From Mesodorylaimus sp. YZB2_4 (taxonomy: Eukaryota; Nematoda; Enoplea; Dorylaimida; Dorylaimidae), in assembly GCA_030248295.1 (NCBI GenBank), contig JASANH010000082.1:208198-272197 (forward strand): a stretch of 64,000 nt of DNA. The letters run 5' to 3'. This document shows, in pieces, positions 3,593-61,053 of the stretch (positions within the stretch are counted from its first letter, which is position 1; every line of letters starts with the position of its first letter). A program made the position numbers and the translations under genes. A model generated the notes under the pieces. That model searched no databases. It was not told where the DNA came from and saw only the letters and a list, made by a program, of their open reading frames with translations.

Positions 3593-3693
3593 GGCCACCC
3601 CCGCGCGGATCCAGTCATTCTGCTTTCGAGCGATCATCTGTGCGACCGAGTCCGATCCTCTCTCGTGTTCGATCAAGACCTCGTTCAGCGACC

Positions 3694-4065
3694 ATGTCGA
3701 TCCCCGGCGACATCAAGACCGTGCCGTTCGACCAGTTGTGGTACAACGCGCCGTTCGACGAGTTCCTCAAGGTGCGCATTCGTCTGACGAACGGTGGCGT
3801 GCGACGCATCGGCTTCCATCTGAAGAGCACCGTCGGTCCCGACCGCATCGAAATCGACCCGGCCAACGGCTGCCTGGACCCGAGCGAGACGACCACGCTG
3901 TGGGTCACCGTCAAACCATTCTCCGGCGCCGACACGTCGTCCGATCGCGTCACCATCGAGTGGACCGACTCCCCGGCCGGTGCCGCCAAGAAGTACAGCC
4001 GCGACTGGTTCACCGGCGATTCCATCGTCCGCCGCAAGAACATGGCCCTCAAGTACAACGAGTGA
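3694..4065 (+). CDS. msp: Major sperm protein (MSP)
   Basis: An intronless gene for 123 residues. The frame is open further upstream, but ATG 3694 is chosen because it gives the canonical MSP start (MSIPGDIKT) and follows the TATA box by about 110 bp. MSP forms the filament cytoskeleton that drives amoeboid crawling of nematode sperm, and it is released as an oocyte signal. Hallmarks seen are PGDI near the N terminus, YNAPFDE, RRIGFHLKST, a DP...G.LDPSET strand, DRVTIEWTDSPAGAAK, and the family signature [16 protein letters not shown] before a terminal YNE. Usual length is 126-127. Divergence from Caenorhabditis MSP is marked in the N-terminal third. Single-exon structure and a TATA box fit the late, abundant spermatocyte expression known for this family. 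A broken copy of the 3' end lies at 6179-6290. Confidence 0.95.
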   Translation: MSIPGDIKTVPFDQLWYNAPFDEFLKVRIRLTNGGVRRIGFHLKSTVGPDRIEIDPANGCLDPSETTTLWVTVKPFSGADTSSDRVTIEWTDSPAGAAKKYSRDWFTGDSIVRRKNMALKYNE

Positions 4066-5313
4066 TCTCGATCGTGATGACCTCGTGCTCGTCTACTGAT
4101 TCTCACCTCGTGCCTCCTTGTCTGCTGCCATGTAAAAGATGAAAAGCGTTGGCGTGCTCCCTGATCAGACAAGGCGTAAGCATGAAGGAAAGGGGAACCA
4201 AGTCACCAAAGCCCCTCTGATGGGGCAGCAGGCATTTCCCACCATGCCTTCAGACAGAGCTGGTCGAATCCCTGGTTGAGGTCGGACATGGGGCCGATGG
4301 GAGCCGACATAGTACGTTATGGTCGCACTTGAATATTAGCCAGGTGCAGTTCACAAAATAGTCTTCTTTGCCCGTCGCATCAGCGTTCCCCGCCAGGTGT
4401 CACTGCAGTCGCGCTGGAGACGGCGCTTATCTCTGCGCCCGTTCGATCCCCGTTCGTGCAATTTGTTTTGGAGGCGTATTTGAGCCGTGCCAATCCATCG
4501 GGTCATGTGTTTTCTGGTTTGGACTAGGTTTCTCGCAGGACAGTGGCCAGGTGGGATGGTCGACGAGGAGTGCCCCCTCGGTGCTAGTGTGGTTGGCTGG
4601 GCGTCGTGGCGGGCGCCTGCAACCTAGCTACTAGGGGGCCGGGACTGGTGGACGGTTTGAGGTTGGGAGCCCTCCGGCGCGCCTGCCTACGTTGACCGAG
4701 CGTCCGCACCAAGCACGCCGTCAATATGGGAGGCGGGGAGGAGTCCTCGACTGCCAGGTTGTCCAAGGATCGCTGTACCGGCCGAGGCCAGAAATGGAGC
4801 AGGCAAAAGGCGACGCGGCGTGACAGTGGTGGGATCGCGCTTGCGAGCAGACGGTTCTTCGGAGCCCAGCCGATACAATCGGACCCCGTTCTTTTGCACT
4901 CGGATCGTCCATGACGGTAAGCTCGCTCGATGATGACAGGACGGAGCTTCTTATGGACGGATAATTGGTTATCGTCATCCTTTCAACACTTATGATTAGA
5001 CCAGTCCGTCCAACACGCGCTCCCATCCGGCTTCTCCTCACGTCACCACTTCCGTCATCCACATATCGACCATTTCCACTCACGTTCAGCTGCATCTTGG
5101 ACGCAGCCATTACTCACGTGCACGAAACGCCGTTTACTCTGACGTCAATAGAAATTCACAAGACTGCACAATTCCACACGTACAAGCCATTGGACACGGG
5201 GACAGCCATGAACACAAGGTGGTCACTCAACTCTCAATGCTTACATTTTGTACACGAATGAATGCAGAGGGAAATATTACAAAATCAAAAAACACCAAAG
5301 CCCAACCTCGTCG
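4066..5313. other. Intergenic stretch
   Basis: It separates the MSP gene (plus) from the 3' end of the Ariadne gene (minus). It starts with the MSP 3' UTR. No exon chain, RNA gene or clear repeat is recognised in the rest. Confidence 0.5.
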
Positions 5314-15685: not shown

Positions 15686-16952
15686 ATGCCTTATATTTCA
15701 AGTAGTGAGTAGCCTTTTTTGCCTTTTTTGAGAAATCGACCTTGAAAACTTTGTTCTTTTTTTTAGCTGGTGAATTGCGTGAATCGCAAACACCGCTCAC
15801 TCCCGGCTGGTTCTGGAATTTGATACTTGGAATCTGGAGCTTCTTCTATTTGCTGTAAGTTATTCCAAACGAAGTTTTCTAATGACGTTTTCTATCTAGG
15901 GTTTCGTTTTTCAGATTTTACACATTGATATCGGTAAGTCTACTGTATCTCCTGTACTGTACTGCATGTTTTGTTTCTTAGGTTTAGGGGATGTACGGGT
16001 TTCTAGACTGCGTGAAACCTCTGGGCATATGATTGGAAGCAAGGCCTACTGACTGGCAAGTGACAAGTTAGGGGGAACAGATGGGATTCGCGTCGGGTCA
16101 CTGTCGTACGGCAGTTTGTAGTATTTTCCACAGCCTGTTCTTTTCAGCCCGGTTATACGAAAAAGGACGAAAAGGATCGGGAACAACGACGAGGATACGG
16201 AGGCGGTGGTGGGAGCGGTCAAGGAGGACCCGGAGGTGGCGGAGGGTGAGTGGACCATTTATGCCTTATCTCTATAAGATAGACTTTGCCTTGGTTTATA
16301 ATGGACACCCGCGAAATTTCCACCGGCTGTTTTCCCGCTGAAATCGAAATGCTTCTTATGTTTTTACTGTGTCTATTCCTACTCCAGTTTTACCATATCA
16401 CCGAAAGTTAAGCATCTCACTCGAGGATGAAGGGACGCATTACACAAGAAATAATTTTGACTAGAAGCTTGCTGTGAAATACGGAGATCTAAGACTTTCC
16501 CAAAGTCATTCCATTTCGTCCCTGGTCCAGGTGTCACCGCACCTCGGCCGGAGGTATGATCGCAGCCTTTGAAGTTTACTGCAGGTTATGACATCGTGCT
16601 GCCTTACATCCGAGGGTGATTGATTGTCCCATCTGATGACAGCAAACTGGTCGTGAGTTGGTTTACTGTCATGTTCTGTCTGATCAATGAGCTTTATCCC
16701 TGCCCTGTTGAGATTCTAGTGCCACCCCAGAAGGTCTCCCAAGCCACTGGCATTTTACATACTTGGTGTCCCTCCTGATTCATGCATAATGAATCATTAG
16801 TCTTTTTCAGTACGGTAGCAATAGCGCTATGTTGGCTTGCTATGATACCAATAAAATCTTATTTTAGCCGTAGGCCGATCGGACGATTAGGAGGCGGAGG
16901 TGCTGGGGCGCCCGAATGCCCACCGATGGCTGGAGGAGGATGAGGTCGGTAA
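15686..16952 (+). CDS. SELENOK: Selenoprotein K, TGA read as selenocysteine
   Basis: Five exons: 15686-15704, 15767-15854, 15915-15933, 16148-16245 and 16868-16952, giving 102 residues with Sec at position 100 (TGA 16941-16943) and a TAA stop at 16950. SELENOK is a small ER membrane protein acting in ER-associated degradation and, with DHHC6, in palmitoylation. Seen: the short N terminus MPYISS, a segment TPGWFWNLILGIWSFFYLLF forming the single membrane helix, a basic then Gly/Arg-rich cytosolic tail (YGGGGGSGQGG, RRPIGRL), and the end PPMAGGG-Sec-GR, which matches the vertebrate PPMAGG-Sec-GR end. The vertebrate protein has 94 residues. All introns are in phase, with ttttag or tttcag acceptors. 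A SECIS follows at 17001. Reading TGA as a stop would remove only the last three residues. Confidence 0.93.
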
Positions 16953-17000
16953 ATGGCGACACGCATTCGCGGTTGTCGCCATAGTCTAAAGTCGTGACGG

Positions 17001-17073
17001 CGCCTGAAACCGTTGGTGATGCGAACATGCTCAACTCCGACTCGGAGGGTACGTTTGCTGATGCGTCAGGTGT
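17001..17073 (+). promoter_or_regulatory. SECIS element of SELENOK (type II form)
   Basis: It lies 49 nt after the TAA. Lower helix CGCCTGA (17001-17007) pairs with TCAGGTG (17066-17072). An internal loop comes next, then the SECIS core GTGA (17016-17019) opposite TGAT (17059-17062). The upper helix GCGAACATGC (17021-17030) pairs with GTACGTTTGC (17049-17058) in nine of ten positions. The apical bulge holds unpaired AA (17033-17034). Above that is a further mini-stem CTCCG/CGGAG with loop ACT, the mark of a form 2 SECIS. The layout fits eukaryotic SECIS rules closely. Confidence 0.88.
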
Positions 17074-17573
17074 CCGAAACGACCGTGCTTACTCGTACCT
17101 GTTCAATATGTAAATGTACTCCGTGCTCATATTGTATGGATTATTTTGGTCGTAGAGGTAGGACTTGATTTTATACTGTAGATTGCTATGCGCTGTGTTT
17201 TTGCCACTAGATGCGTACATACAAGCTTACTTTGTGCCCATTTTATTGTACCAGTGCATATCCTATTTCGACTTGTGTCCATCTACGCAGTATGCACGAA
17301 TTGCGAGGAGACATACCTGCTGTTCGGATGCAATATCGTGGTTGGGGTGTGCACTGACTGCGCCCTTGGAAATGAAATATGTTCGATGCAACAGTGAGGC
17401 AGACGTGTCCCGGGCCTACGTACTGTACAGTGTGCTTGTAATGGAGTCGCCCCGCGCGGATATGCAGTCTGGCCAAAGGGCTCGTTATCAGTGTTATTAT
17501 GTGCAGCTGTATAGCGAGGCAAGGCAAAGTGTCAGGTTATAATGAGAAGCCCCTAATGACATTAGGACAGTGG

Positions 17574-19037
17574 TTACAGCTTGAAATCTCTGTGTGTGTC
17601 CAACAAGCTAACATGGCGGTCCTTGTCCGGCACCCGATCCGTGTCACTGATCTCGATGAGCGGGATGAGCAGGTGTCGACTCAGCTCCATCAACTCGTTA
17701 ACATTGGCCAGCAGGGACTGGTTGTCGGCGTTGCTCCCGCTACGGCTGCCGTTGTCGGGCGAGGTGTCGTTGGATCGACTGAGACAACTGCTGACCGATG
17801 TGGCGGCGATGTCCAACCCCTCATTATCACCCAGTCGGTTCGGGTCCCGGTGCATTTCGATGGGCGCGATCAGAGCGTTGCTGGCCATCTCCGCCTTGCA
17901 CTCCCCCTTGACACTGGCCCTGGACTGTCGTCGGCAGCCGCCTTTTCTCAATCCGCACAGGGCCAGGATCTGGGACCTGCGTTTGGCCCTTATCAGCTCG
18001 TAGTTCTCTTTGATCTTCCTGTTCAGAGCGATGTAGATGAGGGGGTAGCCCAGGCAGTTGATGTAGGGCAGCAGGTGGGTCAAGTAGGCCAAGGCCAGCG
18101 TGACAGGATTACGGTCGGTCACTTTGTACTGGGGTCTGGAGTTGGTGTAGAGAAGCATGACCCAGAAGGGGGTCCAGCATAGTAGGAAGAAGGAGACCAG
18201 GCCGAGAACAGTGCGCGCCACTCGCCACGAATTGACTAAACTGCGTGCACGCCACGAGTGGCGCCTGACATACTGCCATAGGAGCAGATAAAACAATGTG
18301 AACGCGGTGGCCGGCAGGACGTAGCCGATGACGAACGTGTAGAGTATGAAGTCGGACACCCGTCCGTAGGCCCTGTTCTGGTCTTTGTGCATTTGGAACA
18401 TGCACTTGAGGGCCAAGTACTTGACCACGGACGTGCTATTCGAGTCGGGTGGCTGTTCGAAGACGACCACGTAGTGCAGCCCGCCGTACACGTAGACGGG
18501 TGCCATGAGCACGATCAGGACACCGGCTGCCAATACGACCACGCTGAATCCGGCTCGCAAATCATCGGGGAAGGCGCCGCACTGGCGTCTGCACACGACC
18601 ATGTAACACGTCCCACTCAGGGCCATCAGTATGAAAGGGGCGAAGAATTTGTTGAGTAGCTCGGAGCACAAGTACAACTTGCACATGATGGACGAAGGGA
18701 GCAGCGTCCACTGGCCGTGCAGGGCGTCGTCGATCGTGAACGGCATGAAGACCAGGACCACGATGTCGATGACACACAAGACCAGGATGTACAGCTGCAC
18801 GTTGCGGGGTGGCTCTTGGGAGCGGTTCCTGATCAAGGACAGAATGACCGATACGGCCCACATGTTGCCCATGATGCCGCCCAGGAAGAGTAGGATGTAG
18901 AACGTGGCCAGAAAGTAATTGAATAAGCCGAGGGGGCTCAGTGGGATTTGATTCTCGTACGTCTTGTTATTAGCGAATGTCAGATGGGTCAAATAAGGGT
19001 GCAGTGTTTGGTAGGGGTATATGGCAACCACAGCCAT
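17574..19037 (-). CDS. Class A neuropeptide-type GPCR with altered DRY and NPxxY
   Basis: An intronless 487-residue receptor, converging with SELENOK. Seven membrane segments are clear: TM1 with GN (GGIMGNMWAV), TM2 with the conserved Asp (VLCVIDIVVLV), TM3 starting at the disulfide Cys (CKLYLCSELL), TM4, an extracellular loop 2 with partner Cys (LALKCMFQ), TM5 (IGYVLPATAF), TM6 with FFLLCWTPFW, and TM7 (LPYINCLGYPLIYIALN) followed by a basic helix 8 region. It looks most like somatostatin/allatostatin-C/opioid-type receptors; the ligand is not predictable. The DRY site at the end of TM3 reads TCY (ALSGTCYMVVC), losing the key Arg, and NPxxY reads YPLIY. The long Ser/Asp-rich tail (about 110 residues) fits arrestin or kinase regulation. 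Confidence 0.88.
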   Translation of the reverse strand: MAVVAIYPYQTLHPYLTHLTFANNKTYENQIPLSPLGLFNYFLATFYILLFLGGIMGNMWAVSVILSLIRNRSQEPPRNVQLYILVLCVIDIVVLVFMPFTIDDALHGQWTLLPSSIMCKLYLCSELLNKFFAPFILMALSGTCYMVVCRRQCGAFPDDLRAGFSVVVLAAGVLIVLMAPVYVYGGLHYVVVFEQPPDSNSTSVVKYLALKCMFQMHKDQNRAYGRVSDFILYTFVIGYVLPATAFTLFYLLLWQYVRRHSWRARSLVNSWRVARTVLGLVSFFLLCWTPFWVMLLYTNSRPQYKVTDRNPVTLALAYLTHLLPYINCLGYPLIYIALNRKIKENYELIRAKRRSQILALCGLRKGGCRRQSRASVKGECKAEMASNALIAPIEMHRDPNRLGDNEGLDIAATSVSSCLSRSNDTSPDNGSRSGSNADNQSLLANVNELMELSRHLLIPLIEISDTDRVPDKDRHVSLLDTHRDFKL

Positions 19038-20370
19038 GGCGATGGGTCAGCGTCTTCTCCAGTCGGCTCAAGGCGATGTACTGGCGCAGTGAACAGAGCT
19101 AGCTCGGATCGCAATAAATATACTTGATTGAAGGCGAATAAGATAATGTATTTATTGAGAAAAAGCCGAGCACTGGCCGCCTTTGATCAATGTAATAACT
19201 AAAGGCAAAAAGGTGCGTATGTGTGATGTAGGCACGGATACGCCATCAAGACCCTCTTCCTACGACTTACTCACGCCCCTTCGAGTTCCAGTTTTTTATC
19301 CAATGCCCGTCATTCCTTATCTAGTCAACACTAGAAAAAGCAATGAGAACGGCTTTCTAAGCTCGACGGGCGCCCGAACAGACAGCTTGAAAATGGCTTT
19401 TTCCAAATCCATAATGGGCCAAAAGGCAAGAAAAATGATTCCATCAAGTCGAGAACGTAAGCCAAACTCGAATACATAATAACCTCACAACAGCCCGCAC
19501 ACCTAGCCCAGCCAAAAAAGTCCCATTTCTCTGATAGTTCATTGCCAACATGGCAACGTCCCCTTTCAAGGCCCACCCATTTTTTCAATATCTTTATTCC
19601 TATTTGCAATTTCTCCGCGTACCATCTCCAAGCCTGACCACGGAAGAGGCTGAATTTGTTTCTTTGCGAACGCGGGATGGGATGGCTAATAAATTCAGGT
19701 GGCTCCGTTGGGGATTGGTCACAGTACGGATATGGACTGGGAGTGTCAGCTCGCCCTCATATCCCTCCACGCACGCTTATTCAGGCAAGGTGTGCCCAGG
19801 ACGAGACAAGGTACGACCGAGCAAAGGACATGAAATCGAATAGTCCGCCTTTCTGTCCGTCAAAGGCATGTCGGGACACTAAACACCATATTTATACAGC
19901 TAATAAAAAAGTGAGCACAATTTGAAGCTGCCAACTTGCAGGCTCGGCCATTTGAGAGATGCATCTTCTCACACTCTCGTCAGTCCTGAACAGTAGGCAG
20001 TCCATGTAAGGCAGCCAACTCTACGTGATGCAAAAACGAGTCTGGATTCACAAAAAAACACGTGCGAGTAAATTGAGTACGGCCCACGCAGCCTCCCGCC
20101 TCAGGTCTATCGACTTTAATCAAAGTAAAAACGTCAGCAAATTTTTCATAAACTCAATTTTCATTTTCCTAGACTCATCATTTACGAGTCTGGAGTCGAT
20201 GTTTTTTGTATTGCCAGGCCTCATTACTGAACTGCCAACCCGAGTTGGGATGGAATGATAAGAGGGCGCACGGAATAACACGGGCATTAAACTAAGGAAG
20301 TGCCAAGCGTGTCTAATTAGCCTTTCATTATAGCCTTCTAAAACGAGCCCACATTGAATAGACTTTTGTT
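19038..20370. other. Intergenic stretch
   Basis: Upstream of the GPCR and downstream of the next minus-strand gene. No supported exon, RNA gene or repeat is seen. An AATAAATATA stretch at 19112-19121 might be part of the GPCR promoter. Confidence 0.4.
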
Positions 20371-38994: not shown

Positions 38995-39190
38995 CTCTGG
39001 GCGAGGCAGAAACCTGTGCTTTATTTCTCTGCTCCTACAACAAGGAGGGCTTGCGGCCTTCCCCAATTTACGCCTATCAGACTGTTGCAAGATCAAAGGC
39101 TGTTCTGGAGCGGCTGCGGTGGTGTAGTGGTGGTGTAGCTAGTCGCAACTAGCCGCCCGCACTAGCCGCTCCCGGATTGCTTTGATTGTG
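38995..39190. repeat. Repeat-derived stretch before the retrotransposon
   Basis: 38995-39065 matches 24150-24230. It is followed by GGCTGCGGTGGTGTAGTGGT and a CTAGTCGCAACTAGC short palindrome at 39139-39153, resembling the head of SINE family B (GGCCGCGGTGGTGCAGCGG). Confidence 0.4.
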
Positions 39191-40603
39191 GGGTATCGAT
39201 CTCGTTTGTCCGAAGAGAAGCGGAATCATTGCGCGCTCGAGGTGCTCCAGGGATATATGGGTTGACTGGCCCTATCTTACGTGGCATTGCACCAATAATT
39301 CCTTCTTCTCTAGCATCGCTATGCAATCGACCATTGCGAGACTGCCTCTCCCATCTGCCTGGAAGGAAGCAAATTCTGTTGCAGTTCCAAAGTCTGGCGA
39401 TCATCACAATTCTTCTAACTACTGTCCAATATCGTTGCTGCCGATATTATCGAAAGTTATGGAGAAGCACATAGAGCGCCTTTTAAGTTCTCAATTGCAG
39501 CTTTCTCCAAACCAACGTGGTATTCGCTCACGTCATTCGACTAATGGCGCCCTGATCCGGTCGTCGCAGTGGATTTTGGAGGGCCTAAACAGTTCGACGT
39601 CTAAATGTGTTGGTGGAGTGTTCTTTGACTTGAAAAAAGCGTTCGACCGTGTCCAGCATAATAGACTGTTAGAAGTGCTGGAACAGTATCATCATCTTCA
39701 ACCTCGTCTTCTGCAGTGGTTGGCTTCATATCTCGAAGGTCGCACCCAACTCACTGTCGTGGGAAATGCAACTTGCCGTTTCAGTACCGTCTGGTGTGCC
39801 GCAGGGTTCTGTCCTGGGGCCGATCTGTTTGTCGCGCTGATTGATCCGCTGCTAGTGAAAGTTGACAAAACGCAAGCTTGCATTTTTCGTTTGGATTTGA
39901 AGGCTCCTCGCCAAATCCCGCAGATTCACCTGTGTGGTTCGCCGATTCAGTTATCTGATACGATATCATACTTGGGGGTCACGCTGTCTTCGAACATGCA
40001 TTTCGCAGAGCACTGTCACGAAGTTGCAAAATCAGCCAGAGGGATGTTCAGAAGAAAGTTTGGGAAGTTCGCAAGTAAAATTCTGAGAGTGGTCTTCACG
40101 CAGTGTGTCCTCCCGAAGCTCGAATATTGGATGCTGCGCTTGGTCACCAACCCATTCTAATCTAATCCAAGATCTTGAAAGTGTGCTCCCCGATCAGTTC
40201 TATTAACGATTGGAGCAAGTCTTATTAAGAGGCTATGGCAGAATTGGGTTTTTCTACGTTGGAGACACGCCGTAATCAGTTGAAGGTAATTCCGTTCTAC
40301 AAATATTACCACGGTCATGCCTGCTATCCGAATAATCGCTTCATCCACACTTCGGACTCAGGGAGGCGCTTCAGCGAGCAGTTAGTCAAAGAGCACTTCC
40401 TCGAAATTCCAGTTGTTTTCAAAAGCACATACGCGCAATGCTTCGAATATTCTGTTTTAAAGAATTGGAACACTGACAAGATGCTCAGTGATATTGCTCT
40501 TGGTTCATTCGCTGCGTCTGGATGTTTCTCAGGTGATTTTTTGGACATTCAGCTCGTTTTATCGTTCTTTGTTCACATGTTCTCTGCCGTTCAAAAGCAC
40601 TGA
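39186..40603 (+). mobile_element. Dead non-LTR (CR1/Jockey-like) retrotransposon 3' part
   Basis: Reverse transcriptase blocks are readable in order: WKEANSVAVPKSGDHHNSSNYCPISLLP, VMEKHIERLL, NQRGIRSRHSTNGALI, VGGVFFDLKKAFDRVQHNRLLE, WLASYLEGRTQLTVV. The SGVPQGSVLGP motif at about 39790-39825 lies in another frame. The stretch that should hold the catalytic YADD is deleted, after which KTQACIF and SYLGVTLSSN continue the domain. From about 40235 a separate frame holds the usual C-terminal region (RRNQLKVIPFYKYYHG, FEYSVLKNWN, FLDIQL). There is no endonuclease and no intact frame, so it cannot move by itself. Confidence 0.88.
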
Positions 40604-43453: not shown

Positions 43454-46400
43454 TCAAACTTTGACCCATCCTTGACTAGCCCGGTTCTCATATTCTATTG
43501 GCCCATTTGCGAACACTTCTCGCCAATCTGGATTCTCCAGGGTGAATCGTAGCATATTGCGAACTGTCTGAGCGAAGTGCGGCGGCTCAACATTTGGTGA
43601 CGTTGACATGTTCTGAAACAGGAGACAAGGTCGATAAGTCGGTTCCCATGCGGAGGCTCGTCTAGCAATCCAGTCTGCACAGAGCCAGCAGCTGGAAACG
43701 TCACCCGTCAGGATGAGGTTTCAGCCACCGACTAGTCGGAAGACTCGGCTGGCTGCTCTGGGTTGTGCACGTTGCAAAAGCTCCATCGGTTACCCCCTCC
43801 CATAATCTATCACTGAACCACAAACTCACTTGAAGAATCCAATCATCAGGCAGCTCGAGTATGGCTTCAGCCTTCATGATTCGGTAATATCTAAATGGAA
43901 CAATCGAAAACAGTTTCTTCTTGTGATCATAAACGTTCAAAAACTGAAACAGAATAGTAGAACTCGTAGCTGCTTCATTATGGATCAAACTTGTACTTAC
44001 ATCAGACTCATCCGAAAAGTGTCTAGCTGATCGCAGCGCTGATTCCGGACCGCGATCTTCGAATACGCACGAAAATATTTCGCTGGTTGTGAGATCGATA
44101 GCTGAAAATGCAAAAAAAAAACTAGAAAATGCTCAAACATAGAAGGCGCGGGTGCAGATCTGTCTGGGTCCTGCAAGGGCATGTTAATCATATCCACCCA
44201 TACCTAAAATGTATGAATGGGACTCGGGTACGCGAACCCAAGCAGAATCGGGCATGGCATGCCGATAACGTAATCAAGCCATCCATCCATGAACGCCGAA
44301 ACGGGGTGGCTAGCTCCTGTCATATGAAAATGGATAAAAGAGCCAACCATACCTGCCCCATATGCGACCGGCCGTGGTTGTCCCTGCCCACACACTGTGT
44401 TTAGTGCCGAAACGCACGCCAATTTCACGTGAATATTTATCGGTCCCACTGCAGGCGGAATGACAGAAGAAGGTTGTGTATGTAGGAGCCACAAAATATC
44501 CGCAGATAATCTTTCAGATAAGAAGCGAGAGTCGTCAAAGCCGCCAATAATGTAGGCATCAAAGCTAAAATAAGTCTTCTAGAATTCTATCTTTGGGGAG
44601 AGTTCTAGATGCTTAAAAGAGGGGGTAGTTTGCGAAATTTCACGCCTTCTTCAATCTAAAATTTGGCGGAAATCCTGTTTGTATTTCGTTTACATTTTGC
44701 AATGAAAATGCGACAGCAGCAGCCACTAGTGAGATAGGCGGCCAAGCCCAGGGAGGCTGTCGCTCGAAGCAGGACGTTTAGGCGCAGGGTCATTTTGGCG
44801 CCCCACAAGCAAAAAGCGGTCTTTTGGGCATCTGGAAACCGGGGACCATTTTCACAGCCGGTAGATGCGTGTTAACTTTACGACGTGTGTAACCAGTCCT
44901 GGTAAGCGTAGGAGGGAGGTGGCTCTCTCTCCCCCACTCGCCATGGCCTACCAGGCATGAGGGTTACACGTGTCTTAGGGCAAAACGCAGCCACTGGTGT
45001 TTTCAATTTTTCAGGTCCAGGCCATTATTACTTTTATTAGCTTCCGAGCATAAAGCTTAAACCTATAACATACAGTACACTAAATCACAGTCCAGTGGAG
45101 GGGCAGTTGTGCGCTAAACCCGGAAAATACTTAATGCGACCTTGGGCGAGGTCCAGTGATTGAGGGCGATTGATTGGACGAGGTTCATACTATGTACGAA
45201 TTATGAACCTCGTACAGTCGTTCGCCCAAGGTCCAACGATTAAGTATTTGCGTGGTTCAGCACACAGCTTTCAAATAGACTAACTTACTATACTGTATGT
45301 TATCATTTTTTGCTTTATACTTGGAAGCTAATAAGATTCCAGCATCGACCGATCCGGCCGCGCCGATCCAACTGCTGGATCGACCTGATAGGCAACTGAA
45401 TCGACCAGATAGGCAACTCAAATTTTTTGTTCTCTGTTTGCTGGAAAATGATTAGGTGTGGTGCACTATTTAATGAGAAAATCCCGTTTTTCTCTCACAT
45501 CAGCATTTAATCCCACTTTTGGCGCTGATTAATTCTCCTGTGGTTTTTGGAATGGTCTGACAGAGTGACAGCAAGGAAACAGAGCAGGTTTGTGAGGACG
45601 CAGTGCCAAACACGTCATCCCTGCGGTTGGGATCTAGGCCTGGGGCAGGATGCTGAAATGAAAGTGATAATGCCCAGGCCCTGAAAAACCCAGTGGCCGC
45701 TTTTTGCCCCAAGGCATGTCCTAAAGTTGAAACGCACCTTACCGATTGTAAAAATGGTCCCCGGTTTCCGGATGCCCGCTTTTTGCTTGTGGGGCGCCAA
45801 AATGACCCGGCGCCTAAACGTTGGCGCCGAGATGACCTGGCGCTTAAGTATCGGCACCGAAACGTCATGGGCCGGCTGCCGCTGCCCTCCCATACTCACC
45901 TTAGTGGATCTAAATCGTAGCTCTTTATAGCTCCAATATCGTTCAACACGTTCACAACTGTTGTAAGAAATTTCTTCATGTTTCCTGGTGTATCGACACC
46001 GTCGAAATGGGCGAGTGCGGCACAACCACTTGCTAAAAACCACAGTTCCTGAAGGACAGCCCTATTTTCGCACACTGCATAGTCATACCTTGGTGATACA
46101 ATATCACTATATGGCACGTTGTGGCATCGTCGCTTCCAAGAATGGTGAATCCGTCTGAAAGAAATGAAAGCACTCAGAGCCCCAACACGACAAAAATTGT
46201 ACTAGGTTTACCATTAGCGTGCTCCCGTGGAACAACTGCACATTCCCGCTGCCCAACGTACAGACTGCTCTCCGATGCGATTGTCCGAACTGGTATTTCG
46301 CAGAACTGTGAAGCTAACGTCTGGAAAAACGTGCTGCACTTCTCTCTGCTCTCAAAATCAGTCCTGTCCACACAGACAACAGGAGTGACTGAAGTCCAGC

Positions 46401-49743: not shown

Positions 49744-51386
49744 CTATCGCCACGTGTACACTGTTTCGGGCGTTCCTTCTAATATTCGACCTGCCACCTC
49801 GGCCCCTTGCATGAAACTGAAATCCTGGTTCGACGTTTCGTATTTCCATCCCCCGAATCTTCCTCGACTGAATACATTTCGCTCTTCGAGCAGCGTGTGG
49901 GCTTTTCTCAATTCCTTATCTCTCTCCATATTTGGAATAGGATATCCATAGGGAAGAAGGAAGGTGTAGGCATGGTCAACCTTGCACGCTTCCCTGACGA
50001 AACCTTGTTTCACTAATCGATCGATCGTGCGTCGCGAGTAATCTTCCAAATCCAAGTTATGGCCATTGGGGACCTTGGAGATTTCGCACAGGAGGGAGTA
50101 GAATCGACTGTTATCCGGTGTACAGTCGTTGAAGTAGTTGGAGAGGACTGTGATGCGATAATAGGGCGAGTCGTCGGGGAAGTAGAACCAAGTCTTGCCG
50201 ACCAGACAAGCCGGCAATTGGTCCTCGACAGCCACACCTACGATGATGACCGAAGTGTGGCTTAGGTTCGGTTCCAAATTTGGATTCACACATATTCGTC
50301 CAAACAGGTCCAACGGGATGCTCGTGATCAAATAATCGTATTCGTATTTTGTAGTTTTGTTAGTTTTCATGTCCCTAATAGTGGCCACCTTCTCGTTCAG
50401 GTTCACTTGCTCTAATTCGGTTTCATAAGCGAACCAGCTGTTCGGCAGCAGCTGGGCCACTTTGTCCCAAATGTAACCAGTGCCTCCGAGATTAGGATAT
50501 CGAAAGACTGCGTTTGGTCCCCATCCGTGGTCTTCTTTTGTTTTCTCGCCTTCGACAGGAAGTGGCTTCTTTTCCAGATCTTTTAGGTCGATCGGAGCCA
50601 CACGGGCCGACACCCACTCCGCACTCAGCTGATTAAAAGGGGTTGTCCAGATTTTTTCATTGTAAGGTTTGAAGAAGATGTCGCACAGCGTTTTGCCAAA
50701 GCCGAGCATACAAAACTGTTCGAATGTTTCGAGCTAAACAGAAAATGAGGGCGGTAGGGTGACAGAGTGTAATCACCACTGCTGATAACTAGCAGGTTCT
50801 TCAGCATGCCTTTAAATCCAATTCTAGTAGGCCTGTAAACAATTCGATTAAGGGGCTTGGGTTTTGAAAAGGGCCTCAGCACCTCCCCCAGCACTTACGT
50901 GTCTCTGATTGAAAAACTATACACCTCGCAAATTTACGCTCGAACCGCACCTACCTTCACAGTTTCCCCTTTCTGCTCCCTTTCTTCTCGTTCCTTCCAC
51001 AACTGCGTGATGTCCTCGACGCATGCATTCCTCGCATCGTCCGGAAAGTACGGCACAGACTTTTGTATAGGATACGGATAACGAGCGCCTGGTCCAAACC
51101 GGGATGTCAGGTCGATGACTACATCTCGCTTGTGGATCTTCCAATTATCCACAGCTTTATCCAAAATCTCATTGTAAAATTTGAAAGCTGAAAATGTGAC
51201 GTGAACACCACAGTCCCAACCGAATCCTTTCGAATCGTATACCGTCCGACTAAGGCCACCAGGTTCAGATTCACGATCGATTATTAGCACGTCCACTTTC
51301 TCATCCGGGTTCTTTTGTAGCAAATCAGAAATTTTGCAGGCAGCACCCAAGCCAGTGGGTCCACACCCGACGATAAGAATTTTCAT
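49744..51386 (-). CDS. glf-1: UDP-galactopyranose mutase
   Basis: Exons 51386-50955 and 50733-49744 give 473 residues. This flavoenzyme interconverts UDP-galactopyranose and UDP-galactofuranose, the donor for galactofuranose in nematode surface glycans; vertebrates lack it. Seen: the FAD Rossmann start MKILIVGCGPTGLGAA, the ribose-binding acidic end of strand 2 (VLIIDRESEPGGLSRT), GFGWDCGVHVTFSAF, YNEKIWTTPFNQLSAEWV, FRYPNLGGTGYIWDKVAQLL, the YDYLITSIPLD strand, and RGRFGGWKYETSNQDFSFMQGAEVAG at the C terminus. The single intron is phase 0. The eukaryotic-type sequence and the intron argue against recent bacterial contamination. Confidence 0.95.
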
Positions 51387-60603: not shown

Positions 60604-61053
60604 ATGGGCGACGACGTGCTGAAAGTGGACCCGCCCACGGTCGTCTACGCGGGCGCTGCGGGAACGGCGATGAAAGCGACGAATAAGTTGACCAACAGCG
60701 GCGCCACCAAGTTGGCCATCAAGATCAAAGTGAGCAATCCGGCGGTCCTCCTCGTGGCCAAACCGTTCATCACCATCGATCCCGGCCAGACGGTCAACAT
60801 GCACTCGAAACTGACGGCCGAAGCCGATCCCAGTCAAACCTACGCTGTGGGCATCCAGTACGCCGACGCTCCGGCCGACCTGCCCGCCGATGCAGCTGGA
60901 ATGAAAGGGGCCTGGGCCAACATCACCAACGCCAAGACCGTCCGTCTCCAAGTCGAAATCAAGCCAGGCGAGGCAGCGGCCGCCGAAGCTCCAGCAGGCG
61001 AAGCAGCCCCGGCCGAAGAAGCTCCAGCCGAATGCGGTGGCGGTGGCGAGTGA
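60604..61053 (+). CDS. ssp: MSP-domain sperm-specific protein with Ala/Glu/Pro tail
   Basis: An intronless gene for 149 residues from ATG 60604 (the frame is open upstream; this start gives the usual short N terminus before KVDPPTVVYAGAAG). One MSP fold: DPPTVVY, NKLTNSGATKLAIKIKVSNP, FITIDPGQTVNMHSKL, YAVGIQYADAP, then VRLQVEIKPGEA. It resembles the nematode SSP/MSP-domain small proteins (107-109 aa) more than true MSP, and has an extra low-complexity end rich in Ala, Glu, Pro and Gly (EAPAGEAAPAEEAPAE). GC-rich, codon-biased sequence like the MSP gene suggests high expression, probably in the male germline. It may help filament assembly, as Ascaris MSP fibre proteins do, but that role is inferred. 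Confidence 0.88.
   Translation: MGDDVLKVDPPTVVYAGAAGTAMKATNKLTNSGATKLAIKIKVSNPAVLLVAKPFITIDPGQTVNMHSKLTAEADPSQTYAVGIQYADAPADLPADAAGMKGAWANITNAKTVRLQVEIKPGEAAAAEAPAGEAAPAEEAPAECGGGGE

Follow-up and report, generated by a model that had tools for sequence, protein, structure and literature searches.

Introduction

Nematodes are the textbook case of selenoprotein loss, and Caenorhabditis elegans maintains a whole decoding system for one selenocysteine (Sec) codon. In other animals SELENOK is a single-pass ER membrane protein with a C-terminal Sec in a glycine-rich cytosolic tail, and the secreted GPx of filarial and other nematodes are Cys enzymes. Further selenoproteins beyond thioredoxin reductase were reportedly found in some other nematodes by Taskov et al. 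in 2005; this work and that of Otero in 2014 are said to be the key studies of nematode selenoproteins outside Caenorhabditis.

In nematodes a Cys homologue is said to stand in for SelK, and a single selenoprotein is given for each of C. elegans and C. briggsae (PMC2375036). A single selenoprotein is also given for C. elegans in PMC6155587, where selenoproteins are noted in roundworm genomes. Among animals SPS-Cys is reported only in nematodes, with no claim of a Cys in every nematode (PMC4561486), and some nematodes show complete selenoprotein loss (PMC5330540). Filarial thioredoxin reductases end in GCUG (PMC8914392). For the whipworm Trichuris muris the essential steps listed include selenocysteine synthesis and thioredoxin reductase, and Sec synthesis in an early-branching nematode has therefore already been described (PMC10618284). 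Draft genomes of enoplean nematodes exist (PMC11603191). A nematode with a large selenoproteome is not found among the open-licence literature matches listed, which are mostly titles and abstract openings.

The locus described here lies in a window of 64,000 nt, bases 208198-272197 of contig 152, which is the whole stretch of DNA that was analysed. It resembles animal SELENOK (PF10961) in its MxYIS start, its one hydrophobic stretch, its basic glycine-rich tail and its profile match, and differs by having five exons with small introns and more glycine in the tail. The MxYIS start and the GGxUGR C-terminus are presumably shared with human SELENOK. The genome is like those of some nematodes outside Caenorhabditis, as reportedly described by Taskov in 2005 and Otero in 2014, in having more than one selenoprotein. 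Sec decoding and a Sec thioredoxin reductase are present as in C. elegans; in contrast to C. elegans, for which PMC2375036 and PMC6155587 give thioredoxin reductase only, TGA-bearing SELENOK, SPS, GPx and SELENOW-like genes are also found, and the distinct TGA-bearing genes number at least 12. From its sequence, the locus is most probably (roughly 0.95) a functional nematode selenoprotein K gene, whose TGA would be read as selenocysteine by way of a SECIS element in the 3′ UTR.

Origin of the contig

A gene that serves as a nematode marker is present in the window, about 12 kb from SELENOK.

3691 to 4062, plus strand: major sperm protein (in phmmer, PDB major sperm proteins match at E 4.2e-32 and VAP proteins no better than 2.2e-6)

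The PDB major sperm proteins matched are presumably Ascaris and C. elegans entries, and to our knowledge MSP proper is confined to nematodes. The occurrence of this protein on the SELENOK contig supports a nematode source, to which it would point. The other possibility is a contig from a contaminant or a non-nematode animal, which would carry no implication for nematodes. Such a source is compatible with a search for the SL1 leader, which gave 0 genome matches at up to 2 mismatches; this search skips very common words, can miss a match and had no positive control. A foreign origin is considered very unlikely, as the contig carries this major sperm protein and, at 60604-61050, another protein with an MSP domain (closest 1row, E 1.2e-6). 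The missing SL1 match may indicate a lineage other than the SL1-bearing chromadoreans.

Other features of the window are a metazoan SRP RNA gene at 4596-4894 (230.5 bits), a UDP-galactopyranose mutase at 49747-50733 (closest PDB entry 4dsg, 3.9e-53, with no Pfam family at E 0.001) and a reverse transcriptase-domain frame at 39186-40157 (PF00078, 4.9e-13), which is a retroelement fragment.

The SELENOK gene

The gene occupies positions 15686-16952 of the plus strand and has five exons, with a predicted product of 107 residues.

15686 to 15704, plus strand: exon 1, with ATG and a GTGAGT donor; encodes MPYISS and the first base of the following codon
15767 to 15854, plus strand: exon 2, with the hydrophobic stretch WFWNLILGIWSFFYLL; a genome match at this site only
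15900 to 15933, plus strand: exon 3, VSFFRFYTLIS; an alternative acceptor ending at 15914 would give an in-frame loss of five codons
16148 to 16245, plus strand: exon 4, glycine-rich, basic tail
16868 to 16952, plus strand: exon 5, end PPMAGGG-Sec-GR-stop
16941 to 16943, plus strand: TGA, putative selenocysteine codon, at the family's Sec position

The four introns measure 62, 45, 214 and 622 nt, and all have GT...AG ends. The 324 nt frame is uninterrupted except for the TGA and reads MPYISSTGELRESQTPLTPGWFWNLILGIWSFFYLLVSFFRFYTLIS...RRPIGRLGGGGAGAPECPPMAGGG-U-GR, with residues 21-47 forming the hydrophobic stretch. Its 3′ end is GGA GGA GGA TGA GGT CGG TAA, i.e., PPMAGGG-U-GR, and the TGA at 16941-16943 is taken here to be the Sec position of the SELENOK family.

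The Pfam family SelK_SelG (PF10961) matches the spliced product over residues 2-103, which covers profile positions 1-86 of 86 (E 1.4e-9). The match is a moderate one (38.9 bits; cut-off 23.3), and glycine is abundant in the tail; a glycine-rich Pfam family scored the same protein under that family's own cut-off. No relative was found in the PDB at a useful E-value (best 0.11).

The assembly searched comprises 145 Mb in 1067 contigs. With the SELENOK protein as query it yields four matches, three of which are the gene's own exons and the fourth of which has an E-value of 5.3. Thus no other SELENOK copy was found in the 145 Mb by a protein-query search, which a divergent copy with small exons could escape. 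A six-frame genome match to PF10961 (19.4 bits, below cut-off and containing a TAG) was rejected as chance, and the SELENOK gene of the window was missed by that query.

A single-exon rhodopsin-type GPCR (17577-19046, minus strand; PF00001, 2.6e-19) converges on the SELENOK 3′ UTR from about 500 bases away. Inside it, at 18360-18453, ARAGORN places a tRNA-Ser that is probably false.

The SECIS element of SELENOK

Downstream of the stop codon is a structured region with the following features.

16998 to 17076, plus strand: full SECIS element, in which helix I pairs about 16998-17007 with 17066-17076; fold z −3.2
17016 to 17062, plus strand: type II SECIS core (GTGA...AA...TGAT), including helix II and the mini-stem at the apex, from our own finder, the alignment and a weak leave-one-out match

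Sequence 16990-17085 folds at −40.7 kcal/mol. The mean of shuffled sequences is −30.1 (z −3.2), and none of 200 shuffles is equally stable. The motifs stand in SECIS order and with SECIS-like spacing: GTGA at 17016-17019, the apical AA at 17033-17034, a mini-stem at about 17035-17047 and TGAT at 17059-17062. The core begins 72 nt past the SELENOK TGA, and helix I begins about 45 nt past the TAA. Because a mini-stem, CTCCG/CGGAG, lies above the apical AA, the element is assigned to type II; the other type II characters, an RUGA/NGA core, an unpaired apical AA, helix II and a 3′ UTR position, are all present. Our own SECIS finder, which uses RTGA, a helix II of at least 8 pairs, an unpaired AA, NGA and the energy of helix I, gives a single match in 15686-18186, namely the core at 17016-17062.

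The UGA of the core is preceded by G, in contrast to the A of animal SELENOK. In PMC2375036 a G at this position is given for several zebrafish and nematode genes, and PMC3473315 gives the G variant in algae and sponges.

Rfam models yield no match to the SELENOK element, neither at the gathering cut-off nor at E ≤10. An RNA model (R3) was built from ten other elements of the genome, with SELENOK excluded. On the window it finds the SELENOK element (16996-17082, 12.3 bits, E 0.84) as the second of two matches at E ≤10, and the top match, 43892-43950 (13.6 bits), is without a helix II and chance-like. Across nine sources the same model finds the GPx element of contig C72 at E 0.07 and the SELENOK element at E 1.7, and misses the GPx element of contig C145. 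Sequence models alone thus give weak support to the SELENOK element, and the argument for it is based on the order of its motifs, its fold, its location and the gene it follows.

The first-pass annotation had described five small exons ending in PPMAGGG-TGA-GR-TAA, and this structure holds in the intact frame, the GT-AG introns and the PF10961 match. Its element with a GTGA/TGAT core, apical AA and extra mini-stem is likewise recovered, as the core at 17016-17062 with its fold z of −3.2; the distance it gave, an element start 49 nt downstream, is replaced by about 45 nt from the TAA to helix I.

Other TGA-bearing genes

In the genome 13 TGA-bearing loci are found, or 12 if two SELENOW-like loci on contigs C65 and C145 are merged, and they belong to five families: SELENOK, SPS, GPx, SELENOW-like and thioredoxin reductase. 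The figure of 12 is a lower bound, as MSRB, SEP15/SELENOM, DIO, SELENOS and more lie outside the search. A SECIS-like element is present downstream on the same strand at each of the 13 loci.

Four of the loci, on contigs C44, C7, C65 and C145, are SELENOW-like. The motif in each is C-x-G-U; an intron splits the Cys codon, and the U falls in the exon that follows. Over several kilobases the C65 and C145 loci are about 95-99% identical, which would fit either uncollapsed alleles in the assembly or a recent duplication.

The GPx loci with a TGA read VACK-U-GNT (C424 and C539) or VATF-U (C72 and C145), and contig C787 has a near copy of part of C539. In the C145 and C72 genes (L048 and L049), which resemble the secreted filarial GPx, the active-site TGA comes just before a putative intron, and a SECIS-like element lies downstream.

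Three thioredoxin reductase genes have a TGA, with the ends C-U-S, C-U-S and C-U-G. The first two end in Cys-Sec-Ser (TGC TGA TCG/TCT TAA; L050:5146-5163 and L051:4436-4453), and the third (L053) ends in Cys-Sec-Gly.

SECIS elements across the genome

The finder was applied to both strands of 20 sources (430,786 bases) and gave 18 matches scoring ≥20. Fourteen of these are downstream of genes, at the 13 TGA-bearing loci and at the C787 copy, in which the Sec codon is unread. The remaining four fall outside the counted UTRs (window minus strand 27763 and 12413; L052 2511; L048 6747), and none of them has TGAT. All 11 matches that combine a TGAT 3′ core with a score ≥20, SELENOK included, sit 3′ of TGA-bearing genes. 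In three accepted GPx elements GGAT takes the place of TGAT. Among 600 simulated UTRs of 500 nt (first-order Markov) none had a helix energy ≤−10 together with TGAT, thresholds that were chosen after the real elements were known.

An alignment of the 11 elements shows TGA.G, the apical A and GATG to be common to all. Pairing is seen in 94.3% of the helix II cells; shuffles reach 61.5%, and sliding gives no more than 47.1%. The 94.3% is partly built in, because the finder requires helix II, but that requirement does not account for the variety of pair types. In seven of the eight pairs of helix II there are changes on both sides. An alternative alignment (A2) was dropped, as MAFFT displaced the SPS2 and C145 rows.

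In an Rfam control of 14 loci at the gathering cut-off only the SPS2 element is recognised: it matches SECIS_1 at 36.8 bits (cut-off 35). At E ≤10, a control of eight loci recovers the elements of two thioredoxin reductase genes, both under the cut-off (29.8 and 27.4 bits), and misses the other six, including SELENOK. Therefore Rfam confirms sibling elements but misses most SECIS elements of this genome. A further model of our own, R1, recovered GPx elements on which it was not trained (C72, E 0.02; C145, E 1.7). One match without a gene (window 43892-43950, minus strand, E 0.68) ranked over the C145 element.

Loci with no Sec codon read were also scanned. A Cys GPx on C279 (L047, VASEC) has no same-strand match scoring ≥20 in 7 kb, the best being 14.8. 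In a Cys thioredoxin reductase on C45 (L052, end ECCPA) one GGAT match of 23.5 is found in coding sequence upstream of the C-terminal exon, and the finder shows no SECIS match past the stop. For a reductase on C33 (L054), in which no Sec end was read, the finder likewise gives no SECIS match.

Sec decoding machinery

A tRNA-Sec gene is at C75:167350-167435 (76.4 bits, above the Rfam cut-off), and ARAGORN reads it as tRNA-SeC with anticodon tca. The other tRNA-Sec match was rejected because ARAGORN types it as tRNA-Leu. EEFSEC is represented on C3 by an open frame of 593 residues (E 2.4e-165 to PDB 5izk) in which both eukaryotic EEFSEC Pfam domains are complete, and SEPSECS by seven exon matches on C64. 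SBP2 is found as two exon pieces on C8, and the joined sequence matches SBP2 of PDB 7zjw at E 8.1e-18 (next best 0.0056). There were 12 L7Ae-family matches in all; six short stretches (L059-L064) were examined, and only L060 and L061 are SBP2-like.

One SPS locus was found, on C283, with four exon matches, the active site SDLRG-TGA-GCKVP and an Rfam-recognised SECIS element. This differs from the SPS-Cys of nematodes reported in PMC4561486. The SPS and thioredoxin reductase exons each score under the whole-family cut-off, as expected of separate exons. A search for PSTK gave weak matches, the best at 33.1 bits (E 1.7e-6, cut-off 382).

By sequence, the genome carries a predicted Sec-decoding set of tRNA-Sec, EEFSEC, SBP2, SEPSECS and SPS2, five of the six parts searched for, with PSTK uncertain. 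At the outset a multi-selenoprotein nematode that kept the wider Sec machinery had been predicted, with tRNA-Sec, EEFSEC, SECISBP2 and SEPHS2 as the genes to search for and a genome lacking tRNA-Sec and EEFSEC as evidence to the contrary. All four are present, and together with the 13 TGA-bearing loci they bear the prediction out.

Reading of the TGA codon

The gene structure, the family match, the sequence and fold of the SECIS element, the machinery genes and the sibling genes with SECIS elements of like build are direct observations. From these we infer the splicing, Sec insertion, ER location and function of SELENOK as follows. The spliced mRNA would bear the SECIS hairpin in its 3′ UTR, to which SBP2 would bind, and EEFSEC would deliver Sec-tRNA(Sec) to the ribosome. 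The TGA at 16941 would then be decoded as selenocysteine, followed by two more residues (GR) and the TAA stop. Such a protein would be small and would cross the ER membrane once, carrying the Sec close to its C-terminus in a glycine-rich cytosolic tail.

Alternatively, the TGA may be a plain stop: the protein would end in PPMAGGG, and both the hairpin and the GR-TAA would be remnants in a lineage on its way to giving up Sec. The loss would then be limited to the last three codons, and a Cys protein is what PMC2375036 gives for nematode SelK. The weak or absent matches of the general and leave-one-out SECIS models to the SELENOK element would also fit. However the core motifs and helices of that element are unbroken, SECIS-like elements are present at 12 other TGA-bearing loci, and five of the six machinery parts are found, the sixth (PSTK) being uncertain. 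A plain stop is thus held to be highly improbable. That the locus is a pseudogene or a chance assembly of exons, with the functional copy elsewhere, would suit the small exons, the one ambiguous acceptor and the failure of the six-frame PF10961 query, but is judged extremely unlikely in view of a frame kept across five exons with consensus splice sites, a full-length family match and no other copy found by the protein-query search, which a divergent copy in small exons could escape.

Evolutionary implications

A functional SELENOK with a Sec codon is an ordinary type of gene for an animal. The combination of a Sec SELENOK, a Sec SPS2 and a dozen TGA-bearing genes in a nematode is unusual against the portions of the literature consulted. 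It is likely that this nematode retains a large, near-ancestral animal selenoproteome, that the nematode ancestor had both a Sec SELENOK and a Sec SPS2, and that losses within the phylum account for the lone selenoprotein of C. elegans and for the Cys forms of SPS and secreted GPx in other nematodes. The ancestral state follows by parsimony, because other animals have both genes, if the worm belongs inside Nematoda. The single selenoprotein of C. elegans thus looks like a later loss and not the starting state of roundworms.

That the locus informs the timing of selenoprotein loss in nematodes, as initially proposed, is supported, and the timing would become sharper with placement of the species; additional selenoproteins in nematodes have reportedly been described before. 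An annotation that stops at the TGA would truncate or miss such genes. This genome, which has a Sec-type SPS2 and no fewer than 12 TGA-bearing genes, may serve as a reference point within the phylum for dating losses and Sec-to-Cys changes.
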